Source: Acetobacter thailandicus (GTDB lineage Bacteria; Pseudomonadota; Alphaproteobacteria; Acetobacterales; Acetobacteraceae). From it: a stretch of DNA of 64,000 bases. The first letter of the stretch is position 1. Each line of letters opens with the position of its first letter. Below the pieces are notes generated by a model. The model was not told the origin of the DNA. It saw only the letters and a list, made by a program, of their open reading frames with translations, and did no database searches. Positions 12,093 through 26,882 of this stretch are shown here, piece by piece. Where the stretch lies: positions 62,001 to 126,000 of the forward strand of contig NZ_WOSV01000001.1 of the NCBI RefSeq assembly GCF_011516655.1, in the 5' to 3' direction. A program made the translations under genes and the position numbers.

Positions 12093-13268
12093 ATGCAGGC
12101 ATATCACTGCACAGGTCAGCGTGTCCGGACTGAATGGAGAGAACCAGCCTTGCCGACGTACCTCAGTATTTGCCGGAGAAGCATTGCAGCTATTATGCTG
12201 GCATCGGTAGCATCAGGTCAACCCGGTGCGCAGGCTCAGTCCATAATCCCACCACCAACTTTCCTGATTATTGGAAACGGACACACAGAAGGCAGTAGCA
12301 CAATGCTGCCTTCATGTTCAGAAACAGCCCATCGCCTCTCGGGTCAGCTAAAATCTCAGAATTACAATGTATTTGAGGTCCTGAACCCATCAAGTGTTGA
12401 ACTGCGCGTTAGTTTATCCGGGTTTGCAAGACACGTTGATAATAAACGACCTGTCATTGCCTATTGCGGCATGGCATGGGTACAAAACGACCGTATTTTC
12501 CTTTCCCGTGACGAACAAAAAAGTGATCTTCTGCGCAATGCTGTTGTCGCTGACTCACTCATTCGCGCAGCGGATAAGCAAAACGGTTTCGTTTTTCTCG
12601 AACTACACCCTGTCCCCGGACAAAGTCAGGAACTTTCACGCGCTGTCGCCCTGCTTAAAAGCCGCACTGATACCTCACCATCTCTTACAGCAACGATTGT
12701 GCAATCCCCGGCAGCAGACCCGGTCATAGATGAGCTGACTTCCGCCATGCAACCAGGCTGGCAGTGGAATGATCTGGCTAATCTGACGCATGATAACGGA
12801 TTAAATCAGAAATCAAATCCTACACCAGATACTACAATCCCTTCTCCCCCTGCAGCATCGCCAGTACCCCCCTTACAGGCACCCCTCCCGTCAGTACCAG
12901 ATAGCCAGGACCCAGCCCCCACCCATTCTTCTGTAACTGCTACCGATACCTCCACAGTTAAAGAAGTTTCTCCCTCTCCTTCTGCCGCAGTAAATAATAA
13001 TACGTCTCAGCAACCCGCAGCCGTAACACCTCCCTCGCCTCCTCCGGTTAAAAAAGAAAATACACAGGTTGTAAAAGCGCGGGAAAAGGCTGTCAGGCAA
13101 CTACAGGTAAACCTGCTGGCAAGAGGGTACTACAGTGGTGTTATCAATGGGATAAAAACACCAGAAACTATTAATGCGATCAAAAAATTTCAAAAATCCA
13201 TGCATGCGCCTCAGACAGGAAACCTGACAGATTATCAGGCTGCAGCTCTTTTCAGTGCGGTACATTAA
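12093..13268 (+). CDS. Caspase-like (probably inactive) protein with C-terminal peptidoglycan-binding domain
   Basis: Exported protein, 391 residues from the ATG. A TTG at 12150 has a better ribosome binding site (GGAGAG, nine bases away) and would start directly at a signal peptide ending near AQAQ (residue 49). Residues 55-225 look like a caspase/C14 fold: LIIGNGH, NYNVFEVLNPSSVEL, then VIAYCGMAWVQNDRIFL where active enzymes have YYAGHG. The catalytic His of GHG is replaced (GMA), and the position of the catalytic Cys reads FLELHPVPG. Residues 240-330 are a Pro/Ser/Thr linker, and 333-390 match a PG_binding_1 domain (QLQVNLLARGYYSGVINGI). It heads the right T6SS operon. The caspase assignment is inference from pattern; the peptidoglycan-binding domain is firmer. 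Confidence 0.65.
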   Translation: MQAYHCTGQRVRTEWREPALPTYLSICRRSIAAIMLASVASGQPGAQAQSIIPPPTFLIIGNGHTEGSSTMLPSCSETAHRLSGQLKSQNYNVFEVLNPSSVELRVSLSGFARHVDNKRPVIAYCGMAWVQNDRIFLSRDEQKSDLLRNAVVADSLIRAADKQNGFVFLELHPVPGQSQELSRAVALLKSRTDTSPSLTATIVQSPAADPVIDELTSAMQPGWQWNDLANLTHDNGLNQKSNPTPDTTIPSPPAASPVPPLQAPLPSVPDSQDPAPTHSSVTATDTSTVKEVSPSPSAAVNNNTSQQPAAVTPPSPPPVKKENTQVVKAREKAVRQLQVNLLARGYYSGVINGIKTPETINAIKKFQKSMHAPQTGNLTDYQAAALFSAVH

Positions 13269-13269
13269 G

Positions 13270-14145
13270 ATGACACTCAGATTAAAACTCAACCTGACTC
13301 TCGTAACAGGCTTTCTGATAACACTGGCCGTTCTCGTACCTCTGCTGCGTAGCACCCTAAGTCAGACAGCCTATGATGCTGCGATAAGTCAGGCACAGCT
13401 CCTCAATCAGGTAAGTCAGATTACCGAACAGTATAACGAAAAAGAAATTACACCTCAGCTCCTTCAGAGCACCAGCATTGACTTCCCCCCTCAGAGTGTA
13501 CCTTTTTATGCTGTCTCACATCTTGGTGCACTTCTCAGACAGGATCACGTTGGCCTGAACATCAGGGCCACTGCACTCAACCCGACAAACCCGGCTGATG
13601 CCCCAACCCCGGTTGAAAGAAACCTTATCGAGCGGCTGCGTAGCCCTTCTGCACCAGCTATGCTGCTTTCGAACTCTACTGACTCAACTGGAAAACCGAC
13701 TCTTTTACTCGCAACTCCCATTCGTGTGACAAACTCAGGATGTCTCACCTGCCATTCTGATCCGGCCGTTGCTCCTGGAACAATGATTGATACCTACGGC
13801 AGCCAGAACGGCTTTGGCTGGAAACCAGGGGAGACTGTCGGCGCCAGCATTATCAGTATTCCTGTTGGCGCACTTCAGGCCGAAGCTACGGGCAAAATCT
13901 GGAAAATTATTCTGTGCCTGAGCGCCTTATTCCTGATCATTCTTGCCGTAATCAATATCATTATTGAAATCGCCTTTCTGCGGCCGCTACATGAAATGTC
14001 AGCCATTACCGGTCGGGTAAGCCGCGGTGATATGACCGCACCAGAGCTGGCCATTAATGATCATAATGAACTTGCACCTCTCGCCAGCGCCTTTACGCGC
14101 CTGCGGCGCAGCCTTGAGAGTGCCTTCAGCATGCTGGACGAATAA
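13270..14145 (+). CDS. Tll0287-like (DUF3365) haem-sensor protein with HAMP domain
   Basis: Inner-membrane sensor-like protein. From the ATG at 13270 it has 291 residues; a GTG 15 bases upstream, inside the previous gene, is an alternative. An N-terminal membrane helix (LTLVTGFLITLAVLVPLL) is followed by a periplasmic domain containing CLTCHSDPAVAP, a CxxCH c-type haem site, and GWKPGETVGASIISIPV, both typical of the DUF3365/Tll0287 family. A second membrane helix (about residues 212-236) leads to a HAMP segment (FLRPLHEMSAITGRVSRGDM). There is no output domain. The stop overlaps the start of the kinase gene (TAATG), so kinase and sensor probably work together. Redox or ligand sensing is inferred. 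Confidence 0.85.
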   Translation: MTLRLKLNLTLVTGFLITLAVLVPLLRSTLSQTAYDAAISQAQLLNQVSQITEQYNEKEITPQLLQSTSIDFPPQSVPFYAVSHLGALLRQDHVGLNIRATALNPTNPADAPTPVERNLIERLRSPSAPAMLLSNSTDSTGKPTLLLATPIRVTNSGCLTCHSDPAVAPGTMIDTYGSQNGFGWKPGETVGASIISIPVGALQAEATGKIWKIILCLSALFLIILAVINIIIEIAFLRPLHEMSAITGRVSRGDMTAPELAINDHNELAPLASAFTRLRRSLESAFSMLDE

Positions 14146-15767
14146 TGATGACACCTGATCTTCCAACAAATGCCGGACGATATTGCATTGAAGCTTTGCT
14201 TGGGCAGGGTGCAATGGGTGTGGTCTATAAAGCATGGGACCCTCTTGTACACCGTCATGTCGCAATTAAAATGGTCCGCGATAACCTGCTGGAAGGTCAG
14301 GAACGTGCTGACTATCTTGCTCGCTTTCTCAATGAAGCACGTCTTGGCGGTTTGTGTGACCACCCCAATATTGTCTCCCTTTATGATATGGGTGGATCTG
14401 ACGAAGAACCTTATCTCGTATTACAATATGTTGACGGACTGGGGCTCAATAAAGCTCTGCCAAAAGGAACAAAGCTCCCCCTGGACGAAGTAATCCCTAT
14501 TGCTTTGCAGGTACTGGCTGCACTTGAATACGCACATATGCAGGGCATCGTTCACCGCGATGTCAAACCTGCTAACATTATCCTGACCTATCAGGGGCGC
14601 CTGAAAATTACTGACTTTGGTGTATCTCACAGTGCTCTGCTCTCTGAGGCTGAGACCACACCGCTACTCATCGGCACACCTAACTATATGTCTCCCGAGC
14701 AATGTGCAGGCCGCCCTGTCGATTCACGAAGTGATCTGTTCTCTTTCGGCAGTGTCCTTTATGAAATGCTCAGTGGCAAAAAAGCCTTTGAAGGCCGTGA
14801 ATATAGCGACACCTCACTCCTGATCCTTAACACTGAACCAGAACCATTATGTGATCTGAGATCTGACCTCCCGGCAGGAATCGCAACAGCACTTAGTCGC
14901 ATTCTGGCAAAAGATCCCAATGACAGGTTTTCATCTGCCCGTGAGTTTTCTGATGTTCTCAGGCGCGCGACACCACAGTTTGACCTAAGCTCTCCACTGC
15001 CTCTGCCTCAACAGCAGTTTCACTCTGCACCAGAGCAAACTGTTTCTGATGATACAGCTGAAAATACATCTTACCATAAAGAAATATCTGAAAATGATGC
15101 ATCTCTCGTTCCGGATGATAACGATGATGATTATGACGGAGATGCAACTGTTATAATAGCCGCGGAAGATAACCTGCCTCCGTTATCACATCCTGTAGCA
15201 GAAACTGAATGGCTGAACGCCCTGGAGGCACATTTGCTGAACCTTTATGGCCCGGCAAGTCGTCAGTCATTAAGGAAGGCCTGTGAACAGGCAGAAACAA
15301 AAGAAGAAATCCTGGCATTAGTACTCAAAAACAAACGCCGCAAAAAAGATCTTCTCGCTCTGTTTTTGCCGGCACAACCTATAAATGAACAGGCTATTCA
15401 CTCAGAAGAAAACGAAACGCCCACTGAAAATATAGTTGAATTACAAAATACCGCTGAAGAGACACCTCTTCCTCAGACTGAGATCATACCTGAACACCAG
15501 AATGATCAGCATCCTGAAGAATTATCTTATGAGGAACCTCCTTACATTCAGCAGGAAGAAGATCCGCCCCTTACAGATGAAGATATTATCCAGGTCAGTG
15601 CCGCACTGTCTGATGTGCTTGGACCTGTTGCTACACCGGTCCTGCGCAGAGCCTCTCTCCGGGCCAAAAATTATCCGTCATTTGTCGCGCTGTGTGAGAC
15701 TTATATCAAACATCAGGGAGATCAGGAGCGTTTCCGTAATCTTCTTGCTGCGACTACACGTACCTGA
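14145..15767 (+). CDS. T6SS-associated Ser/Thr protein kinase (PpkA/TagE type)
   Basis: Hanks-type kinase predicted to phosphorylate a T6SS component so that the FHA protein can bind and trigger assembly. All catalytic motifs are present: glycine loop GQGAMG (20-25), Lys42, HRDVKPAN (137-144), DFG (157-159) and GTPNYMSPEQ. After residue 285 comes an acidic low-complexity stretch, then two related helical segments, LLNLYGPASRQSLRKAC (about 370) and LSDVLGPVATPVLRRAS (about 485), sharing a GPxA...LR+A pattern. No membrane helix is evident, unlike Pseudomonas PpkA. The adjacent haem-sensor gene may supply the membrane sensing half. Confidence 0.9.
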   Translation: MMTPDLPTNAGRYCIEALLGQGAMGVVYKAWDPLVHRHVAIKMVRDNLLEGQERADYLARFLNEARLGGLCDHPNIVSLYDMGGSDEEPYLVLQYVDGLGLNKALPKGTKLPLDEVIPIALQVLAALEYAHMQGIVHRDVKPANIILTYQGRLKITDFGVSHSALLSEAETTPLLIGTPNYMSPEQCAGRPVDSRSDLFSFGSVLYEMLSGKKAFEGREYSDTSLLILNTEPEPLCDLRSDLPAGIATALSRILAKDPNDRFSSAREFSDVLRRATPQFDLSSPLPLPQQQFHSAPEQTVSDDTAENTSYHKEISENDASLVPDDNDDDYDGDATVIIAAEDNLPPLSHPVAETEWLNALEAHLLNLYGPASRQSLRKACEQAETKEEILALVLKNKRRKKDLLALFLPAQPINEQAIHSEENETPTENIVELQNTAEETPLPQTEIIPEHQNDQHPEELSYEEPPYIQQEEDPPLTDEDIIQVSAALSDVLGPVATPVLRRASLRAKNYPSFVALCETYIKHQGDQERFRNLLAATTRT

Positions 15768-15782
15768 AAGGGATAATGCTCT

Positions 15783-17690
15783 ATGTCTTCAACAACCCCT
15801 ACATCGATATCAGGCACTGCAAACAAAGCCTCGCAGGCACGTGATGCTGTTCAGGGGGTGCGAAGTGTACTGGACAGCATATCGGGAGCTGATCCGCTCT
15901 CACCCCTTATGGAAACCAGCTCACCTCTGGGTGAAGATTTTTTGCCTAATCAGTCAGGCTCATTACATGCCATTGCCCTCAATGCACATGAAAGCATAAG
16001 CCAGCCTTTTCATGTTTCTCTGACCATTGTCACAACAGCAGGGCAGCTGTCTCCTGATCTGCTGCTTTACAATCCTTTTTGTGTGACCATTAAACGCTCT
16101 CCCTCTGCAGATCGTCATTTTAACGGCGTTGTGCAGCGTATGACGCCGGTCGGAAAAACTGAGCGCGGACGCTGGACATACCAGCTGGAGATTGTACCAA
16201 GATTATGGTTTCTCTCGCAGTCTGAGGATTGTCGTATTTTTCAAAACCAGTCTGTTGACCAGATTTTGACCACTTTGCTGTCTGAGCATGGGGTTCAGCC
16301 TTTTGAATTCAAAATTTATGGCGATAAACCTGTACGTGAGTACACCACACAGTTTAATGAAACTACACTCGGCTTTATGCACCGTTTATTGCAGGAAGAA
16401 GGCTGGTTTTACTTTTTTGAGCATAGTAAAAGCGAACATAAGCTTATTATTACCGACCGTAACGAATCATTTCTTCCTGTTTCCAGGCCGCTGCACCGGG
16501 TTGTACCCAAAGGTAATAATGTCGATATCATCGACCAGTGGGGCGGGGGTTCAGCCACAGCGCACGGTCAGGTCACTCTGACCGACTACGACCCCTCCCG
16601 CCCCGCGGTACCTATTCATGCGCAGGAGGTCACACTTTCAACAACAGCAGGCGCTGCAACCCGCAAAGTAGCACGCTGGCCGGCCCTGACAAAAGATCAG
16701 AAAACCGCAGATCGCCGGGCCAGAAGCCATATAGAGCATGCTGAGGCTTCCTCATCCCTTTGCCGCGGGCACGGGTACGATCCTGAGTTTATGCCCGGCC
16801 GACGTTTTCAGATCGAAAGCGACCCTCTGACTGGTAATGAAATGACAGAATATGCTTTGCAGTCTGTCTCACACCTGGCCAGTGATAATACCTGGGCGGG
16901 TCAGTCTTCAGGGGCACATTACGATTGCAGTTTTTCCTGTTTTCTTCAGGCCACTCCCTGGCGCGAGCCTGCAAACAACGCACGTCCTGCCATGACAGGT
17001 ATTTTCTCAGGCGTCGTCATTGGCCCTAAGGGGCAGCAAATTCACGCAGACTCTCTGGGACGTATCAAAGTACGGATTATATTTGATCACCGCAAAGAAA
17101 CATCATCAGGCTTTGCAACCTGGGTGCGTGTCATTCAACCCTGGGCTGGCGATAGCTGGGGCTGGCAGCATTTACCCCGCGTTGGCACTGAAGTCGCCGT
17201 TGCTTTTATGAACGGTGATCCGGATGAACCCGTTGTTATCGGTGGTTTATATAACCAGTCAATGCAGCCGGTTTTTGCTGTACCCAGCGAGCAGACAAAA
17301 AGTGGTTTCCGAAGTCGCTCTGTGCATGGAAGTTCATCAGAATTTTCCGAACTCTCTATCGATGATAATAAAGGTCAGGAAAAAATATACCTGCGATCCC
17401 AGCGTGATTTGCAAACCTACGTTCTGAATGATCGCAAAACTGATATCGATGGCTATAGTACGACAAATATTGAAAAAGATGTCAGCCTGACAACAAAAAA
17501 AGGATCGATGACAGTTACCTCTGAAACCGGAGCGGTAACCATCCAGGCTGAAACTGAAATTACACTTAAGGTTGGTGCGTCAACATTTCGGCTGACGCAG
17601 GATGGTATTACCCTTAACAGCGACAAAATAACGGGCACAGCCGGCAACACAATTACCTTCCTCGGCTCGACTATTCATCTAAATGGCTAA
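15783..17690 (+). CDS. vgrG: T6SS spike protein VgrG (TssI)
   Basis: Trimeric spike at the tip of the Hcp tube. The 635-residue protein has gp27-like domains (VQRMTPVGKTERGRWTYQL, LQEEGWFYFFEH), the gp5-like OB fold (GVVIGPKGQQIHADSLGRIK, FATWVRVIQPWAGDSWGWQ, PRVGTEVAVAFMNGDPDEP) and a beta-helical needle that ends in TITFLGSTIHLNG. There is a 65-residue N-terminal extension before the core. No enzymatic C-terminal extension follows the needle, so this is a structural, not an evolved, VgrG. It is embedded between the kinase and FHA genes with no effector, adaptor or PAAR gene beside it; its stop overlaps the FHA start. Confidence 0.95.
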   Translation: MSSTTPTSISGTANKASQARDAVQGVRSVLDSISGADPLSPLMETSSPLGEDFLPNQSGSLHAIALNAHESISQPFHVSLTIVTTAGQLSPDLLLYNPFCVTIKRSPSADRHFNGVVQRMTPVGKTERGRWTYQLEIVPRLWFLSQSEDCRIFQNQSVDQILTTLLSEHGVQPFEFKIYGDKPVREYTTQFNETTLGFMHRLLQEEGWFYFFEHSKSEHKLIITDRNESFLPVSRPLHRVVPKGNNVDIIDQWGGGSATAHGQVTLTDYDPSRPAVPIHAQEVTLSTTAGAATRKVARWPALTKDQKTADRRARSHIEHAEASSSLCRGHGYDPEFMPGRRFQIESDPLTGNEMTEYALQSVSHLASDNTWAGQSSGAHYDCSFSCFLQATPWREPANNARPAMTGIFSGVVIGPKGQQIHADSLGRIKVRIIFDHRKETSSGFATWVRVIQPWAGDSWGWQHLPRVGTEVAVAFMNGDPDEPVVIGGLYNQSMQPVFAVPSEQTKSGFRSRSVHGSSSEFSELSIDDNKGQEKIYLRSQRDLQTYVLNDRKTDIDGYSTTNIEKDVSLTTKKGSMTVTSETGAVTIQAETEITLKVGASTFRLTQDGITLNSDKITGTAGNTITFLGSTIHLNG

Positions 17691-19320
17691 TCTGAAAAAC
17701 AGAGCATTCTCCATGACCGCACTAACACTCAAAGTTATTTCTGCACCAGAAGGAATATCTTCAAAAGACCAGATTATAAAAGATGAAAAATTTATAATCG
17801 GCCGGGATCCTGGCTGTAACTGGTGCCTTGCAGATACAAACCGTGTTTTATCAAAAAAACACTGCGTTATTGAACGCCATGGTGAAGGATGGTGCCTGAG
17901 TGACACCAGCACAAACGGAACGTTTGTTAACCAGGATACTATGCCATTAAAAAAGAAAAAACATGACCTGCAGGATGGAGATATTATTGAATTTGCATCA
18001 TATAAAATTAAAGCCATAATAAGTGGGCCAGACAATATCACTATAAAGAATGAAAATTATCCTTCATTATCAGAAAATACTCATAATAACTCTTTTACAG
18101 GAAACGAGTTCAGTAGCTCACTAGCAAATCTTACCGATGATTTCTCTGCTTTTCCACCAAATGAAAATCTCCTGATATCAAAGGATAGTATCTCTATTAA
18201 CGAAATTCCATATATTGATACAACACCATCTGAGCGAGAAAACAGCCCGATACACGAAGCATATAAACCACCCAATGTTGTAAATGAAATTATCAGTGAC
18301 AACTGGGATGAAGATCCTGTAGATGATAAAGTTATTAGTAAAAAAGATGATTTTTCTGATAGCGATGTCATAAAAAACCATCTCTCTGATGAACATGATC
18401 TGACACCCTCTGAGGCTGAACAAACATCCCCTTCTGATCAGGATATTTTTTATTATCCAGATACACAAACCTCTGTTTCTGCCAGTTCTGTAACAGAATA
18501 TGAACAGGCCCCTGCCTATGAAGATATCCAGGCAGAATACAGGGCATCATCTGTGTCAGATACATTTATCCACGAAGAAGTTTCACCTCATGCTGAGGAA
18601 AACATACAAGCGGGTATATTTACTGACTCTGCCACTCCTGATTCAGAGCAATGTGATGACAGTATATCTGGTTACAATGCATTTTCTCTGAAGGCTTTTT
18701 TACAGGGAGCCGGGATGGAAAAGATTATTGATCTCTCTGATCTGACCCCTGAGATCATGAACGAACTTGGCAAAAGTTTTCGGGCAATGATTCATGGTCT
18801 GCGTCAGATCATGATTGCAAGAGCAACCATCAAAGGAGAGTTTCGCATTGAGCAAACCATGATTCAGGCAGCTGGCAATAATCCTCTGAAATTCTCATCA
18901 GATGATGACGATGCCCTCATGGCCATGATTGGTATAGGTCGCAGGAGCGGTATGCCACCGTCGCAGGCCATTACCGAATCTCTTAATGATATGAGCTTAC
19001 ATGAATTTGCGGTGATTAATGCAATGCAAAGCGCCGTATTACATATGCTGACCCGTATGGAACCTGCACGTTTTACGGAAGATGCCGGAGACCGCTTTTT
19101 CGACTTCCTTCCGGCCAATAAAGCCGGACGCGCTTTTGCATTCTATGCAGATACACATAAAAATCTGACTTCTGCCCTGAAAGACGATTTTGACAGTAGT
19201 TTTGGCAAAGATTTTGCACGTTCTTATGAAAAAGCACTGACCAGTGCAGAAAAATCACTAAAAAATACCACCCATAAAGCTGAAAAAAATATTCCTTCTG
19301 CCGATGGAGATGCACAGTGA
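17683..19320 (+). CDS. tagH: T6SS FHA-domain protein Fha (TagH)
   Basis: Phosphothreonine-binding scaffold that couples kinase activity to T6SS assembly. The 545 residues begin with an FHA domain (about 20-105) carrying GRDPGCNW, SKKHCVIERH and DTSTNGTFVN. A long acidic, Ser/Asp/Glu-rich linker follows (about 120-330), and a helical T6SS-specific FHA C-terminal domain (about 345-530) contains SFRAMIHGLRQIMIARATIKGEFRIEQT in separable blocks. The start overlaps the vgrG stop; an ATG ten codons in is an alternative. Linker codons are AT-richer than neighbours. tssK overlaps its stop. Confidence 0.9.
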   Translation: MANLKNRAFSMTALTLKVISAPEGISSKDQIIKDEKFIIGRDPGCNWCLADTNRVLSKKHCVIERHGEGWCLSDTSTNGTFVNQDTMPLKKKKHDLQDGDIIEFASYKIKAIISGPDNITIKNENYPSLSENTHNNSFTGNEFSSSLANLTDDFSAFPPNENLLISKDSISINEIPYIDTTPSERENSPIHEAYKPPNVVNEIISDNWDEDPVDDKVISKKDDFSDSDVIKNHLSDEHDLTPSEAEQTSPSDQDIFYYPDTQTSVSASSVTEYEQAPAYEDIQAEYRASSVSDTFIHEEVSPHAEENIQAGIFTDSATPDSEQCDDSISGYNAFSLKAFLQGAGMEKIIDLSDLTPEIMNELGKSFRAMIHGLRQIMIARATIKGEFRIEQTMIQAAGNNPLKFSSDDDDALMAMIGIGRRSGMPPSQAITESLNDMSLHEFAVINAMQSAVLHMLTRMEPARFTEDAGDRFFDFLPANKAGRAFAFYADTHKNLTSALKDDFDSSFGKDFARSYEKALTSAEKSLKNTTHKAEKNIPSADGDAQ

Positions 19321-20645
19321 GCTGGAACAACCGTGTCGCCTGGGAGGAGGGCATGTTCCTCCGCGCACAACATTTCCAGCAACAGGACCGCTGGACAGAA
19401 GAACAGATACGCCAGACATTACGTTTTGTCAGACCCGATGGATGGGGTTTTGTACACCTGCAAATCAGCCAGGACCTCCTGACATCCGGGCGCTTCGCCC
19501 TGACATATGCCTCCGGAGTATTTGATGATGGCACCCCTTTCAGCATGCCCGGAGAAGCTGATCTGCCTCCACCGCTTGAGATACCAGATACAACACGCGA
19601 TGCGCTGATTTATCTCGCTCTGCCTGTTCGTCAGGCAGGCGCAATGGAGATGATTGCCGACGGCCGAAAAGACGGGCGTTATGCTGTATCAACCTTCGAA
19701 GCATTTGACACACAATCAGGCTCCTCCCAGCCAAGTGAAATTGATATCGGGCGTCTGAGCACAATACTTCTGACAGAAAACAGTGATCACGAAGGGTATC
19801 TGTGCCTGCCTGTCGCACGCGTACGCGAAGTTCTGCCCAGCCAGCAGGTCGTGCTTGACCAGGGATGGATCCCTCCGTCTCTGACCTGTTATGCAACGAC
19901 ACAGCTCTCTGCCCTGGCTATCGAGCTGACTGGCATGCTCAACCAGCGCGGCAATGCTATTGCGGCCCGTCTGACATCACCTGGCGGCAAAGGGAGTGCT
20001 GAAGTTGCAGATTTCCTCCTGCTTCAGTCAATCAATGGCTGGCAAAATCTGATGTCACATTTTGCTGAAACAGGCACTGTTCATCCCGAAGATTTTTATC
20101 GTTTTCTGATCTGTGTTGCCGGAGAGCTCTCAACATTTACAGCTCCTGACAAACGTCCTTCACAATACCAACCCTATCGCCACAAAGATATCCAGGCGAG
20201 TTTCGCACCTGTTGTTGCTGATATACGCCGTTCACTTTCTGCTGTGTATGAACAGACTGCCGTAATGATCGAGCTCAATCTGCGTCGTCATGGCATTCGC
20301 ACGGGCACTATTCATGACCGCTCGCTTCTGGCTAAAGCCAGTTTTATCCTTGCTATTACAGCAGAGATGCCAACAGAAGAACTTCGCCGCCTTTTTCCTC
20401 ATACTGTTAAAATTGGTGCTGTTGAGCATATCCGTGAGCTTGTTAACGTTGCTATGCCAGGCATCGGCTTACGACCACTTCCTGTTGCTCCGCGACAAAT
20501 GCCATTTTATGCGGGCGCAACCTATTTTGAGCTTGATCGCAACTCTCCCTCCTGGCAGAGCCTTAACAGTTCAGGGGGTATTGCTCTTCATGTTTCCGGT
20601 GACTTTCCCGGTCTGAAAATTGAACTCTGGGCAATTCGTTCATGA
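19317..20645 (+). CDS. tssK: T6SS baseplate protein TssK
   Basis: TssK (ImpJ/VasE) trimers connect the baseplate wedge TssFG to the TssL/TssM membrane complex. The 442-residue product starts at a GTG overlapping the FHA stop and shows the family opening VAWEEGMFLRAQHFQQQD and the later FEAFDTQSGS and PLPVAPRQMPFYAGATYFELD blocks in separate positions. It ends in the compact C-terminal receptor domain (IALHVSGDFPGLKIELWAI). Its stop overlaps the tssL ATG (ATGA), the usual tssK-tssL-tssM order. Confidence 0.95.
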   Translation: MSWNNRVAWEEGMFLRAQHFQQQDRWTEEQIRQTLRFVRPDGWGFVHLQISQDLLTSGRFALTYASGVFDDGTPFSMPGEADLPPPLEIPDTTRDALIYLALPVRQAGAMEMIADGRKDGRYAVSTFEAFDTQSGSSQPSEIDIGRLSTILLTENSDHEGYLCLPVARVREVLPSQQVVLDQGWIPPSLTCYATTQLSALAIELTGMLNQRGNAIAARLTSPGGKGSAEVADFLLLQSINGWQNLMSHFAETGTVHPEDFYRFLICVAGELSTFTAPDKRPSQYQPYRHKDIQASFAPVVADIRRSLSAVYEQTAVMIELNLRRHGIRTGTIHDRSLLAKASFILAITAEMPTEELRRLFPHTVKIGAVEHIRELVNVAMPGIGLRPLPVAPRQMPFYAGATYFELDRNSPSWQSLNSSGGIALHVSGDFPGLKIELWAIRS

Positions 20646-22021
20646 CCGGCAACCCTTTTCTTGAGCCCGATGATAACGAGCAGACCATTATCCGCCCTTT
20701 ACCTGGAGGGCGCCCTCCCCAGCCCGAAAAAACTGAGCCAGAGCAACCTCTCAGTCCCGCACAGCAGCAGATAAATGTACAACCGGCGAATGCGCTGCGT
20801 TTTGAAGATATTCAGCATTCGTCACAATCCATCATTGTCGCCGCTGCTGCCGGGTGCCTGAGTTTCCTCAGCCGTATTCATAACACCTACACTGCCCCTG
20901 ACCCCACGCAACTAAGACAAAATGCAATTGCTGCCCTGAAACAATTTGAACAGGTTCTGCGTGATAATAATGTGCCAATGGATGAAATCCGCCCCGCACA
21001 TTATGCGCTCTGCGCAAGCATGGATGACGTAGTACATTCTACCCCCTGGGGTAGTCAGGGAATATGGAGCGCAGCCTCCCTCGTCTCCACCTTCCACCAG
21101 GAAGTGCAGTCGGGTGAACGTTTTTTTGACGTGCTGGTACGTATTTCGCGCAGCCCTGGTCGTATGCTTGGTGTGCTGGAGCTGATGTATCTCTGCATCT
21201 GTCTCGGTATGCAGGGGCGATATCGCCTCTCACCCCGCGGCCCGGCTGATCTGGACCGTATACGCGAAGAAATATTCATTCTCATTATGCGCAACAGGCC
21301 AGCAGTAGAGCGTGAACTTTCACCGCACTGGCAGGGAGTCAGCGCACCCTACCGCCCGCAACGATTTGGCGTGCCGGTATGGCTTGCTGCCGTGGCCGGC
21401 CTGACCCTGATTAGTTTTATTTATGTGTGGGTCACACTGGGAGCGGCACGCCTTTCATCAAACCTGTTTGCCTCAGCCCTCTCCATCCCGCCAGGGCAGC
21501 AGCCTCAGATTGCCCGCGTTGCACCGGTTGAAGACCTGCCTCCTCCTCCTGAACCCGTTCACGGGGAACGCGAACGCCTGGAAACTTTCCTTGCCCCTGA
21601 AGTGCAGCAAAAACTAGTCTCTATTGAAGGCACAGACGCCGTTCCTGTTATACGCATAATGGGTAAAGGCATGTTTCTGTCTGGTACTGAACAGCTTGAC
21701 CGTAATACGCTACCACTCCTGCACCGTATTGGTCTGGCTCTGGCCACAGAAAAAGGCTGGGCTGAGATTATCGGCTATACAGACAGCCGGCCTATTCACA
21801 CCATTCGTTTCCCGTCCAACCTTGAGCTTTCACGCGCCAGGGCAGAAACCGCTGCTACCTTCATTCGTGAAACCGGAGGCACTGGTATGCCACTCCATAT
21901 TCAGGGTGCCGGTGCCTCTAACCCCATCGCTTCCAATGATACACCTCAGGGGCAGCAAATGAACCGCCGCATCGAAATTGTTCTGCATCGCCAGACGCCA
22001 GACCAGGACAAGCAGCCGTGA
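20642..22021 (+). CDS. tssL: T6SS membrane protein TssL with C-terminal OmpA-like domain
   Basis: Inner-membrane component (DotU/IcmH/ImpK) of the T6SS envelope complex. Residues 1-60 form a Pro-rich cytoplasmic tail with the motif EQTIIRPLPGGRPP, whose Thr15 is a candidate phosphorylation site. The DotU domain spans about 75-235, a single membrane helix lies at about 243-264 (VWLAAVAGLTLISFIYVW), and an OmpA-like peptidoglycan-binding domain fills 320-455 (LSRARAETAATFI, QMNRRIEIVL). Such TssL-OmpA fusions anchor the complex to the cell wall and are usual in imp-type clusters that lack TssJ, as here. GTGA overlap with tssM. Confidence 0.95.
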   Translation: MTGNPFLEPDDNEQTIIRPLPGGRPPQPEKTEPEQPLSPAQQQINVQPANALRFEDIQHSSQSIIVAAAAGCLSFLSRIHNTYTAPDPTQLRQNAIAALKQFEQVLRDNNVPMDEIRPAHYALCASMDDVVHSTPWGSQGIWSAASLVSTFHQEVQSGERFFDVLVRISRSPGRMLGVLELMYLCICLGMQGRYRLSPRGPADLDRIREEIFILIMRNRPAVERELSPHWQGVSAPYRPQRFGVPVWLAAVAGLTLISFIYVWVTLGAARLSSNLFASALSIPPGQQPQIARVAPVEDLPPPPEPVHGERERLETFLAPEVQQKLVSIEGTDAVPVIRIMGKGMFLSGTEQLDRNTLPLLHRIGLALATEKGWAEIIGYTDSRPIHTIRFPSNLELSRARAETAATFIRETGGTGMPLHIQGAGASNPIASNDTPQGQQMNRRIEIVLHRQTPDQDKQP

Positions 22022-25563: not shown

Positions 25564-25593
25564 TTCATGCAGAACCTTGAGGAATACCCACCT

Positions 25594-26136
25594 ATGCCTG
25601 AACAGGCCGGATTTTGTGGCAAACTCCCCGCCAGAGGAGACTTTATCCGGCGAGGGCTTTCAGAAACACTGGTCTCATGCTGGGATAACTGGGTAGCCCG
25701 CAACCTGGCCTATACTCACACTGTTATTACTCAGGATGAGTGGGTAAAAGGCTGGGTTATCGCGCCGCTATGGCGTTTATCTCTTCCTGCCGGGCATTTA
25801 TCTGAGCAGCCCGTAAGTGGTCTGATAATGCCCAGTATTGACAAAGCCGGTCGCTATTTCCCATTTTTTGCCGGAGTGGAAGGTATTTCTGCGGCTATCA
25901 ACACCGGCTCTTTCTGGCATGAGATGGAACATGCCTGCCGTGATGCTCTGATGCATACTATAGAACCTGATGAACTTTTTCTTCAGCTACAGAATATTCC
26001 TGCTCCCGAGGAAACATCCTGTATGACGGAACAGGGGCTGTGGATGACAGAAGGTAATAACACTATCCCTGCCCAGACTCTGACATATCAGGAGCTCCCC
26101 GAGCAGGAACTTTTTGCAAAGTTGTTCTGGGCATGA
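25594..26136 (+). CDS. tagF: T6SS-associated protein TagF (ImpM)
   Basis: TagF (DUF2094) family protein; in Pseudomonas and Agrobacterium it represses T6SS assembly post-translationally, in Agrobacterium as part of a TagF-PppA fusion. The ATG at 25594, after GAGG, gives 180 residues starting directly with the family opening GFCGKLPARGDFIRRGL; an upstream ATG at 25567 adds nine residues and has no evident ribosome binding site. Other matches are WRLSLPAG and GLIMPSIDKAGRYFPF. Here TagF and the PP2C phosphatase are separate genes overlapping by four bases, effectively a coupled version of the Agrobacterium fusion. Confidence 0.9.
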   Translation: MPEQAGFCGKLPARGDFIRRGLSETLVSCWDNWVARNLAYTHTVITQDEWVKGWVIAPLWRLSLPAGHLSEQPVSGLIMPSIDKAGRYFPFFAGVEGISAAINTGSFWHEMEHACRDALMHTIEPDELFLQLQNIPAPEETSCMTEQGLWMTEGNNTIPAQTLTYQELPEQELFAKLFWA

Positions 26137-26882
26137 CTGAAACAATACGATACTCCGCATCAACACATCAGGGTGTTGTCAGAGCTGAAAATCAGGATGC
26201 CTATCTGTGCCGTCCTGATCTGCAGATTTTTGCCGTCGCAGATGGTGCAGGCGGGCATGATGACGGACAGTGGGCGGCACAACGGGTCATTGACAGCCTG
26301 GCGTCACTCCCTGCTGATCTCCGGCCCAGCGAACTTTTACAGCGTATTCGACACCGCCTGACAATGGCACATGAACAGCTGAAAATGGAAGCACTGCGAC
26401 GTGACAGCCAGAAAGGTATGGCTTCGACTATCGTTGTTCTAATTTTAACGGAAGAGTATTTTGCCTGTCTCTGGCTGGGAGATTCCCGTATTTATATGAT
26501 GCGGGATGGTGAGTTAATTCAATTAACAAAAGATCACTCCCACACACAGGCTTTAGTTGATGCAGGCCTTCTGCGTGTTGAGGAAATGGAATTACACCCC
26601 CAGGCAAATGTCATTATCAAAGCCATTGGTGCGGGGTCACAGCCACTTATGATTGATAAATGCACAGGCCCGCTTCTGCCTTACGACAGGTTTTTATTAT
26701 GTTCTGATGGCCTGACAAAATCGGTTAATGACAGCAACATTCTTAAATGCCTTGAAACAGGAGTGAACTCTGCAGATCTTCTGGTAAAAACTGCTCTGCA
26801 AAACCATGCACGCGACAATGTTACAGCCATTGTTGTCAGCATTGAAGATGAAGAAAAATGGCCTTCAAATAACGATATTTAA
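26133..26882 (+). CDS. T6SS-associated PP2C-family protein phosphatase (PppA)
   Basis: Metal-dependent Ser/Thr phosphatase expected to reverse the kinase-driven activation of the T6SS. The 249-residue protein carries the PP2C motifs STHQGVVRAENQD, VADGAGGH (aspartates for metal binding), LWLGDSRIYMMRDG, LLCSDGLTKSV and HARDNVTAIVV. It has no membrane segment or signal peptide, so it acts in the cytoplasm. It is the last gene of the right operon; its stop is only 11 bases from the convergent tssA stop, leaving no room for a normal terminator. Confidence 0.92.
   Translation: MTETIRYSASTHQGVVRAENQDAYLCRPDLQIFAVADGAGGHDDGQWAAQRVIDSLASLPADLRPSELLQRIRHRLTMAHEQLKMEALRRDSQKGMASTIVVLILTEEYFACLWLGDSRIYMMRDGELIQLTKDHSHTQALVDAGLLRVEEMELHPQANVIIKAIGAGSQPLMIDKCTGPLLPYDRFLLCSDGLTKSVNDSNILKCLETGVNSADLLVKTALQNHARDNVTAIVVSIEDEEKWPSNNDI

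Follow-up and report, generated by a model that had tools for sequence, protein, structure and literature searches.

A haem-Cache HAMP sensor without an output domain and a soluble Ser/Thr kinase form a conserved gene pair, here inside a type VI secretion cluster of Acetobacter thailandicus

How could a Ser/Thr kinase that has neither a membrane helix nor a sensory part of its own receive a signal from the periplasm? The question is raised by a type VI secretion system (T6SS) cluster in a 64,000-nucleotide stretch of Acetobacter thailandicus (NCBI RefSeq assembly GCF_011516655.1, contig NZ_WOSV01000001.1, positions 62,001 to 126,000 of the forward strand), the whole of which is called the window here. 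In this cluster, the gene for a haem-type sensor that ends at its HAMP domain overlaps the start of the gene for a soluble kinase. The sensor and the kinase are a conserved two-gene module, which is also found in other Alpha-, Beta- and Gammaproteobacteria. An earlier note on this DNA had proposed a two-gene receptor kinase, and at the level of sequence comparison this idea is now well supported by the conserved pairing, the sensor tail, a partner domain associated with the sensor and a contrast within the genus. The features concerned are the following.

13270..14145, + strand: haem-Cache (Tll0287/DUF3365) HAMP sensor of 291 amino acids (Pfam, transmembrane and Cys scan, AlphaFold, Foldseek)
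13741..13755, + strand: CLTCH haem c attachment motif, sensor residues 158-162 (sequence)
14080..14142, + strand: HAMP AS2 helix and C-terminal tail LASAFTRLRRSLESAFSMLDE, the proposed output face (sequence; coincidence of tail and kinase in the family set)
14145..15767, + strand: soluble Hanks-type Ser/Thr kinase of 540 amino acids (Pfam, hydropathy, AlphaFold)
15195..15368, + strand: first, divergent copy of the GP domain of the kinase (G369-P370, invariant column of alignment A3; helices 354-407 in the model)
15570..15764, + strand: second copy of the GP domain, the proposed docking module (hidden Markov model, HMM, E 1.1e-8; helices 478-538)

The sensor gene starts with an ATG at 13270 and ends with a TAA stop at 14143-14145. 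In the Pfam search, PF11845 (Tll0287-like) matches residues 32-198 (E 5e-32, 111.7 bits against a curated cut-off of 24.1) and HAMP matches residues 236-283 (E 7.7e-7). Since the chain ends at residue 291, close behind HAMP, there is no room for an output domain. Thus, the earlier description of a DUF3365 sensor with CxxCH and HAMP and without an output domain holds. There are two hydrophobic segments at about residues 8-26 and 214-232 (Kyte-Doolittle means of 2.14 and 3.12), and the only Cys outside CLTCH is residue 216, within the second transmembrane segment (TM2). Both Cys residues of the CxxC pair are invariant across 29 kinase-linked sensors (alignment A1). The AlphaFold model (pLDDT, the predicted confidence score, 88.7) shows a mixed alpha/beta domain framed by two long helices and resembles Tll0287 (5b82) with a Foldseek E value of 3.5e-7 and a TM-score of 0.68 by target length. 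By sequence, CxxCH motif and predicted fold, the window sensor is a member of the sCache_heme / Tll0287-like family. It is the single PF11845 match in a profile search of the source genome, which also holds a CcmF/NrfE-type maturation gene for haem c attachment. Seven kinase-linked sensors elsewhere have CATCY in place of CxxCH (L048:8483-9370, L051, L052, L053, L139, L140 and L141). They retain the Cys pair and exchange the haem-ligand His for Tyr, which is a single change on the FastTree phylogeny; six of them lie within T6SS loci, and the remaining locus, L051, breaks off upstream at a contig end.

The kinase gene begins with an ATG at 14145-14147 that overlaps the sensor stop by one base (TAATG), and another ATG lies at 14148. 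Pkinase matches residues 15-264 (E 1.7e-50), with the VAIK, HRD and DFG motifs all present. In the AlphaFold model, the kinase domain is followed by a disordered linker, a helical domain (354-407), a second linker and another helical domain (478-538). No transmembrane helix was found in the kinase by hydropathy, where the maximal 19-residue mean is 1.36, and none appears in the model. Both the gene overlap and the lack of a membrane helix, which the earlier note had read from the letters, are therefore borne out, the overlap being one base at exactly the coordinates given. This kinase is also the one Pkinase match above the cut-off in the source genome; another, at 20.7 bits, lies below it.

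The same pair recurs well outside the window. In 249 genomes of the window's family, PF11845 is present in 50, and it occurs at 52 places outside the source genome, 51 of which were fetched (G167 was left out). A Ser/Thr kinase lies directly downstream on the same strand at 34 of these 51 places. A scan of named genomes with a pattern for the sensor tail returned 258 stretches, of which 251 encode relatives. Titles among the best 80 of the 251 include Alpha-, Beta- and Gammaproteobacteria, Myxococcaceae and a Lentisphaeria bin, and a kinase is encoded immediately downstream in 64 of the 77 loci that remain when identical sequences are merged. No title from Pseudomonas occurs among these 80, and the plasmid protein searches gave no Pseudomonas hit either. 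The pair is seen in 106 further loci and thus is not a matter of chance. It also travels on plasmids: among five matches examined (Skermanella, Rhodovulum, Rippkaea and two Caballeronia), the Skermanella and both Caballeronia plasmids carry the pair beside T6SS genes, annotated merely as 'DUF3365 domain-containing protein' and 'serine/threonine-protein kinase', and the Rhodovulum plasmid carries it without T6SS genes within the stretch shown. No fused sensor-HAMP-kinase protein, the Rosetta stone of such a pair, was found among the open reading frames (ORFs) of the collected loci.

The end of the sensor follows the presence of the kinase. Kinase-linked sensors share a conserved tail, approximately F(N/T)R(M/L)RRSLxxAMxML, which lies a few residues ahead of the stop. 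In the family set, an RRS-type tail and a downstream kinase occur together in 34 of 44 sensors and are both absent in the other 10 (Fisher p 4e-10); the rule for the tail was written once the tails had been seen, and the family set itself was not selected by tail. The named-genome loci were found by the tail pattern, so their tails are no independent evidence.

On the kinase side, two C-terminal repeats around a Gly-Pro stand out in the kinase alignment (A3). This GP domain is a helical domain of about 53 amino acids that occurs in one to three copies per partner protein. An HMM of 53 positions, seeded from kinases adjoining sensors, matches 101 of the 107 adjoining kinases and detects two copies in 85 of them. 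The six kinases without a match are either cut by a contig end (L038, L054, L184) or fragmented, with GP in the following piece (L037, L140, L192). In the window, the HMM reports copy 2, the sole GP match in the source genome, and copy 1 was identified from the alignment and the model. GP fragments gave no convincing match to Pfam and NCBIfam models, and the GP profile gave no match in the PDB better than E 0.37. Because the HMM was seeded from adjoining kinases, the evidence that counts comes from the non-kinase partners, from the co-occurrence across whole genomes and from the cases without linkage. GP is the only part that all partner types share, whether kinase, kinase-cyclase, cyclase, MscS channel or TIR protein. 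Next to a sensor, it is found in class III cyclases (Marinobacter, L146; also L220, L211, L212 and L219) and in kinase-cyclases (L195, L159). It forms the C-terminus of seven MscS-type channels (L063, L068, L071, L075, L079, L080, L082) that have the sensor gene upstream, with an overlap of 4 bases between the two genes in L068, L079 and L080. A TIR-domain protein with a C-terminal GP adjoins the sensor in Duganella (L193:10531-11586), and three Myxococcaceae partners (L149, L172, L203) contain three GP copies and are not matched by Pfam at E 0.001. A sensor joined to an MscS channel that ends in GP is possibly a haem-controlled channel. In L169, L208 and L219, a kinase and a cyclase, both with GP, stand beside one sensor, which suggests two clients per receptor.

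The association of GP with the sensor was followed across genomes. Of 135 sensor rows, 130 count as full-length, with a score of 150 bits or more and no less than 0.95 of the profile covered, and for 123 of these a GP protein is encoded adjacently on the same strand. The others are accounted for by contig-cut kinases (L038, L054, L184), by two sensors whose longer open frames are of a different type (L133, L134) and by GP kinases at a distance, about 20 kb from the sensor in L044 and, within the genome of L173, about 260 kb from it; the latter case means that the association survives without linkage. The whole-genome searches for GP scored the best candidates only (up to 26 per genome in the family, 16 in the phylum and 150 in the named set), so weak copies may be missed. 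In a phylum-wide sample of 398 genomes, GP occurs in five, and these are precisely the five with a sensor match above 320 bits. The sixth sensor match reaches 248 bits and covers profile residues 3-244, and the remainder lie below 180 bits. The chance of this five-genome coincidence is about 1e-11 if relatedness and the limited scoring of candidates are ignored. In the family sample, 42 of the 43 genomes with GP (of 249) also have PF11845, and the exception (G074) has its GP where a 4.9-kb contig ends. Eight family genomes with PF11845 give no GP match (L046, L047, L049, L050, L043, L038, L035 and G167). In the first four, a separate haem protein lies upstream of a two-transmembrane protein, which in L046 is a hybrid histidine kinase; the PF11845 protein of L043 has 191 amino acids. 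Twenty named genomes, picked from the best 80 to span the partner types, were searched whole, and each contains one sensor (E 1e-30) and GP in one or two proteins only, adjoining the sensor in 19 and encoded by a kinase gene about 260 kb from it in the twentieth. GP is also present in the sensor-adjoining kinases of the Skermanella, Rhodovulum and two Caballeronia plasmids. The cyanobacterial plasmid of Rippkaea orientalis (NC_011721.1) has a full-length sensor, and the small hypothetical genes behind it lack GP. Elsewhere on this 50.9-kb circle, about 5.5 kb from the sensor across the start of the record, a caspase-domain protein (L258:2889-5276) is weakly matched by the GP model at three places (E 4.7e-8 to 4.5e-5 in that record).

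The genomic setting connects the pair in the window with type VI secretion. By NCBIfam and Pfam, the cluster comprises TssH, TssB, TssC, TssE, TssF, TssG, VgrG, TagH/FHA, TssK, TssL, TssM, TagF and a PP2C phosphatase, and the sensor-kinase pair is placed between TssG and VgrG/TagH. Four of its products bear on the kinase.

17683..19320, + strand: TagH, FHA-domain protein, the expected phosphothreonine reader (Pfam, NCBIfam)
20642..22021, + strand: TssL/DotU (NCBIfam), with Thr15 in DDNEQTIIRPLPGG, codon 20684-20686, a candidate kinase target
25567..26136, + strand: TagF (Pfam, NCBIfam)
26133..26882, + strand: PP2C phosphatase in the place of PppA (PP2C_2, E 1.3e-15)

An N-terminal Thr in a T(I/V/L)(I/V/L/M)xP motif of TssL, which is Thr15 in the window, was found in 11 of 14 loci; the exceptions are a near-match missed by the pattern (L053) and two open frames too extended to judge (L202, L215). 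The phosphorylated residue described in passages of PMC3953482, Thr14 of the Agrobacterium TssL, is taken as the analogue of Thr15, and by this analogy TssL and/or TagH would be expected as substrates. At least two T6SS core genes lie in the fetched flanks of 25 of the 107 kinase-linked loci (window counted), and of 23 of the 73 loci with 8 kb on both sides. Placement in T6SS loci changes at least 11 times on a FastTree of 126 sensors, where short flanks can hide T6SS genes, which suggests repeated recruitment of the pair. Among 49 genomes of the window's genus, TssK is present in 10, and a full-length sensor is present in 6, all within those 10 and none of the other 39; nine additional weak matches are restricted to the HAMP region. 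In the four T6SS genomes of the genus that lack the sensor, the fetched stretches gave no GP domain. Of these, G650 resembles the case of a one-chain PpkA in that its kinase includes a membrane helix and a long C-terminal part, G683 and G661 encode short kinases without a transmembrane segment, and in G660 the kinase is in pieces about 9 kb from VgrG and says little.

To place the pair among known systems, we compared it with the PpkA pathway of Pseudomonas aeruginosa, Serratia marcescens and Agrobacterium tumefaciens, with which it shares a Hanks-type kinase in a T6SS cluster together with FHA, PP2C and TagF. The PpkA proteins of P. aeruginosa and S. marcescens have a periplasmic domain, according to passages of PMC6082577, whereas the window kinase is soluble, with GP domains at its end and neither a membrane-spanning nor a periplasmic part. 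The RtkS-PpkA system of S. marcescens, as described in the same source, is similar in that a separate extracytoplasmic protein feeds the kinase. RtkS is periplasmic, has no recognised relatives and binds the periplasmic domain of PpkA; the window receptor, in contrast, spans the membrane, bears a haem motif and HAMP, and must signal on the cytosolic side. Therefore, the window pair is neither a P. aeruginosa-type PpkA nor an RtkS system, and we propose that it works like a one-chain receptor kinase that has been cut behind HAMP. The best PDB sequence match of the sensor profile is the archaeal HAMP protein Af1503 (4gn0, 2l7h), which has a near-identical tail (RLRRSLKVAMESLEE / LRRSLKVAMESLEE) and, unlike the window sensor, shows no haem-domain match in its PDB chains. 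The HAMP-bearing relative that has been studied is sCache_heme Target 2 of P. azotoformans (Deshpande et al., bioRxiv 2026, PMC12889525), whose description shares PF11845 with CxxCH, two transmembrane segments, HAMP and no axial Cys. The outputs described in the main text of that paper are fusions to histidine kinase, methyl-accepting chemotaxis protein, GGDEF/EAL or cyclase domains, unlike the window sensor, which has no fused output. In the same main text, where the terms 'type vi', 'thr kinase' and 'operon' return 0 each, we saw neither a separately encoded kinase as partner nor a GP domain nor a connection to T6SS. In the literature searched, mostly open access, we found no description of the sensor-kinase pair or of the GP domain, and no paper joining DUF3365 with type VI secretion. 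Af1503, too, is a HAMP protein without an output domain.

These comparisons lead to a mechanism, given here as a proposal. The sensor would be an inner-membrane receptor, probably dimeric, whose periplasmic Cache domain carries covalent haem c. Ligand binding or a redox change at the haem would move TM2 and HAMP, and because the sensor chain stops just behind HAMP, the way out for the signal would be the AS2 helix and the tail (FxRxRRSLxxAxxML-stop), which are exposed. There the kinase, in the cytosol, would dock via its C-terminal GP domains and so be brought to the membrane and switched. It would then phosphorylate Thr15 of TssL and/or TagH, with FHA as the reader and with PP2C and TagF in opposition. 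We consider it probable, by a good margin over even chances, that sensor and kinase are the two chains of a single receptor kinase, with this GP-mediated docking and with action on the T6SS. A wider reading, towards which we lean only slightly, is a plug-in receptor system in which an output-less haem-Cache HAMP receptor serves unrelated outputs that carry GP (Ser/Thr kinase, class III cyclase, both fused, MscS, TIR and perhaps the cyanobacterial caspase-domain protein, sometimes two at once) and has been recruited by several T6SS clusters for periplasmic gas or redox coupling.

A companion gene enters the comparison of alternatives.

12093..13268, + strand: upstream gene, exported-looking, with C-terminal PG_binding_1 and a weak caspase-like stretch (Pfam, neighbourhood survey)

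A gene of this PG_binding_1 type lies beside 43 of the 107 kinase-linked sensors (window included). Its caspase-like stretch is often degenerate, and in L186 and L207 the gene lies on the opposite strand; a regular expression for the caspase-type His motif matched few of 50 such ORFs. At other loci, the sensor is preceded by a small exported-looking protein with FWPTWP...FSLIGF and no Pfam match (L219:9499-9972, L149:9252-9983, L173:8855-9937).

Several observations weigh against docking through GP and against a general role in secretion. The presence of GP in the adjoining kinases is partly by construction, given how the HMM was seeded. Mutual information over 102 pairs (effective number about 70) gave no support for a HAMP-GP contact: couplings of HAMP or tail to GP number 1 in the top 100 against 5.6 expected, and the leading pairs join Cache to the kinase domain and resemble lineage effects. 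Outside the full-length set, sensor L035, which has no full HAMP match, lacks a GP protein of its own, as does the second sensor of L034, where the nearest GP kinase belongs to the first. GP could serve dimerisation or bind a third partner instead. Such a self-association or scaffold domain, with sensor and enzyme sharing a pathway and touching via the upstream PG_binding/caspase-like protein or the kinase domain itself, would fit the two GP copies of 85 kinases, which suit oligomerisation, as well as the frequent PG_binding-type companion and the silent mutual information. However, the 43 loci with that companion are nearly all alphaproteobacterial while GP and sensor stay paired beyond them, and a general dimerisation domain should exist without the sensor, which is not seen in the 398 genomes; we therefore regard this alternative as unlikely. 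Far less probable still is that the genes are mere operon neighbours, a constitutive PpkA-like kinase next to a sensor that reports elsewhere. A single-base overlap is common in operons and would agree with this, but the pairing is kept across classes, without T6SS, with non-kinase GP partners and with the order of genes changed, as in L168 and L179, where the GP kinase comes first, and it persists unlinked in one named genome. Our proposal is that an output enzyme reaches the haem receptor by docking through its GP domain.

The link to secretion has to be weighed in the same way. Fewer than two T6SS core genes lie in the fetched flanks of 82 of the 107 kinase-linked loci, so the T6SS link is lineage-specific. 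The pair might then regulate stress responses or biofilm in general and lie in the cluster by accident, without controlling firing, and the modest count of 25 loci with T6SS genes would suit it; we judge this improbable, since within the genus the sensor is confined to T6SS genomes, the window pair stands between TssG and VgrG/TagH, and the placement changes on the sensor tree suggest repeated recruitment. The earlier tie of the pair to T6SS thus holds, as placement, within the genus and not in general, and the pair, sought in other T6SS loci, does recur there although most of its loci show fewer than two T6SS core genes in the fetched flanks. As for what the receptor kinase would sense, the earlier note had named a redox or gas signal, which stays plausible. 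Acetic acid bacteria oxidise substrates in the periplasm, where this c-type haem would lie, and a sensor of redox state working by electron transfer through haem c would suit such a setting; the seven CxxCY sensors keep both Cys residues and could act as a thiol switch. On the other hand, the periplasmic part has no Cys beyond CxxC in 106 of the 107 kinase-linked sensors (the exception, L165, is a partial ORF). In the main text of PMC12889525, the stand-alone relative that looks redox-like has an axial Cys, and the full-length HAMP-bearing relative of P. azotoformans, which has none, binds nitric oxide (NO) tightly, releases it slowly and does not form a stable complex with O2. With two transmembrane segments, HAMP and no axial Cys, the window sensor shares the build of this NO-binding relative. 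The gas part of the earlier claim is accordingly better matched by NO than by O2: by analogy, the signal is likely to be nitric oxide rather than oxygen. The analogy comes from one protein, which weighs against leaning on it, and NO is our best guess at about an even balance with redox or another ligand taken together; redox sensing by itself seems somewhat doubtful.

The pair has consequences beyond this cluster. A receptor that ends at HAMP provides a clean way to study HAMP signalling in trans, and the claim that GP docks onto it is testable with two small proteins. The GP domain, unmatched by Pfam and NCBIfam models, predicts which enzymes listen to a haem receptor, and its distribution suggests that MscS channels and cyclases, too, may be under NO or redox control by way of the same receptor. 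Where a T6SS cluster has a kinase without a built-in sensor, the pair offers a concrete periplasmic input, probably NO.

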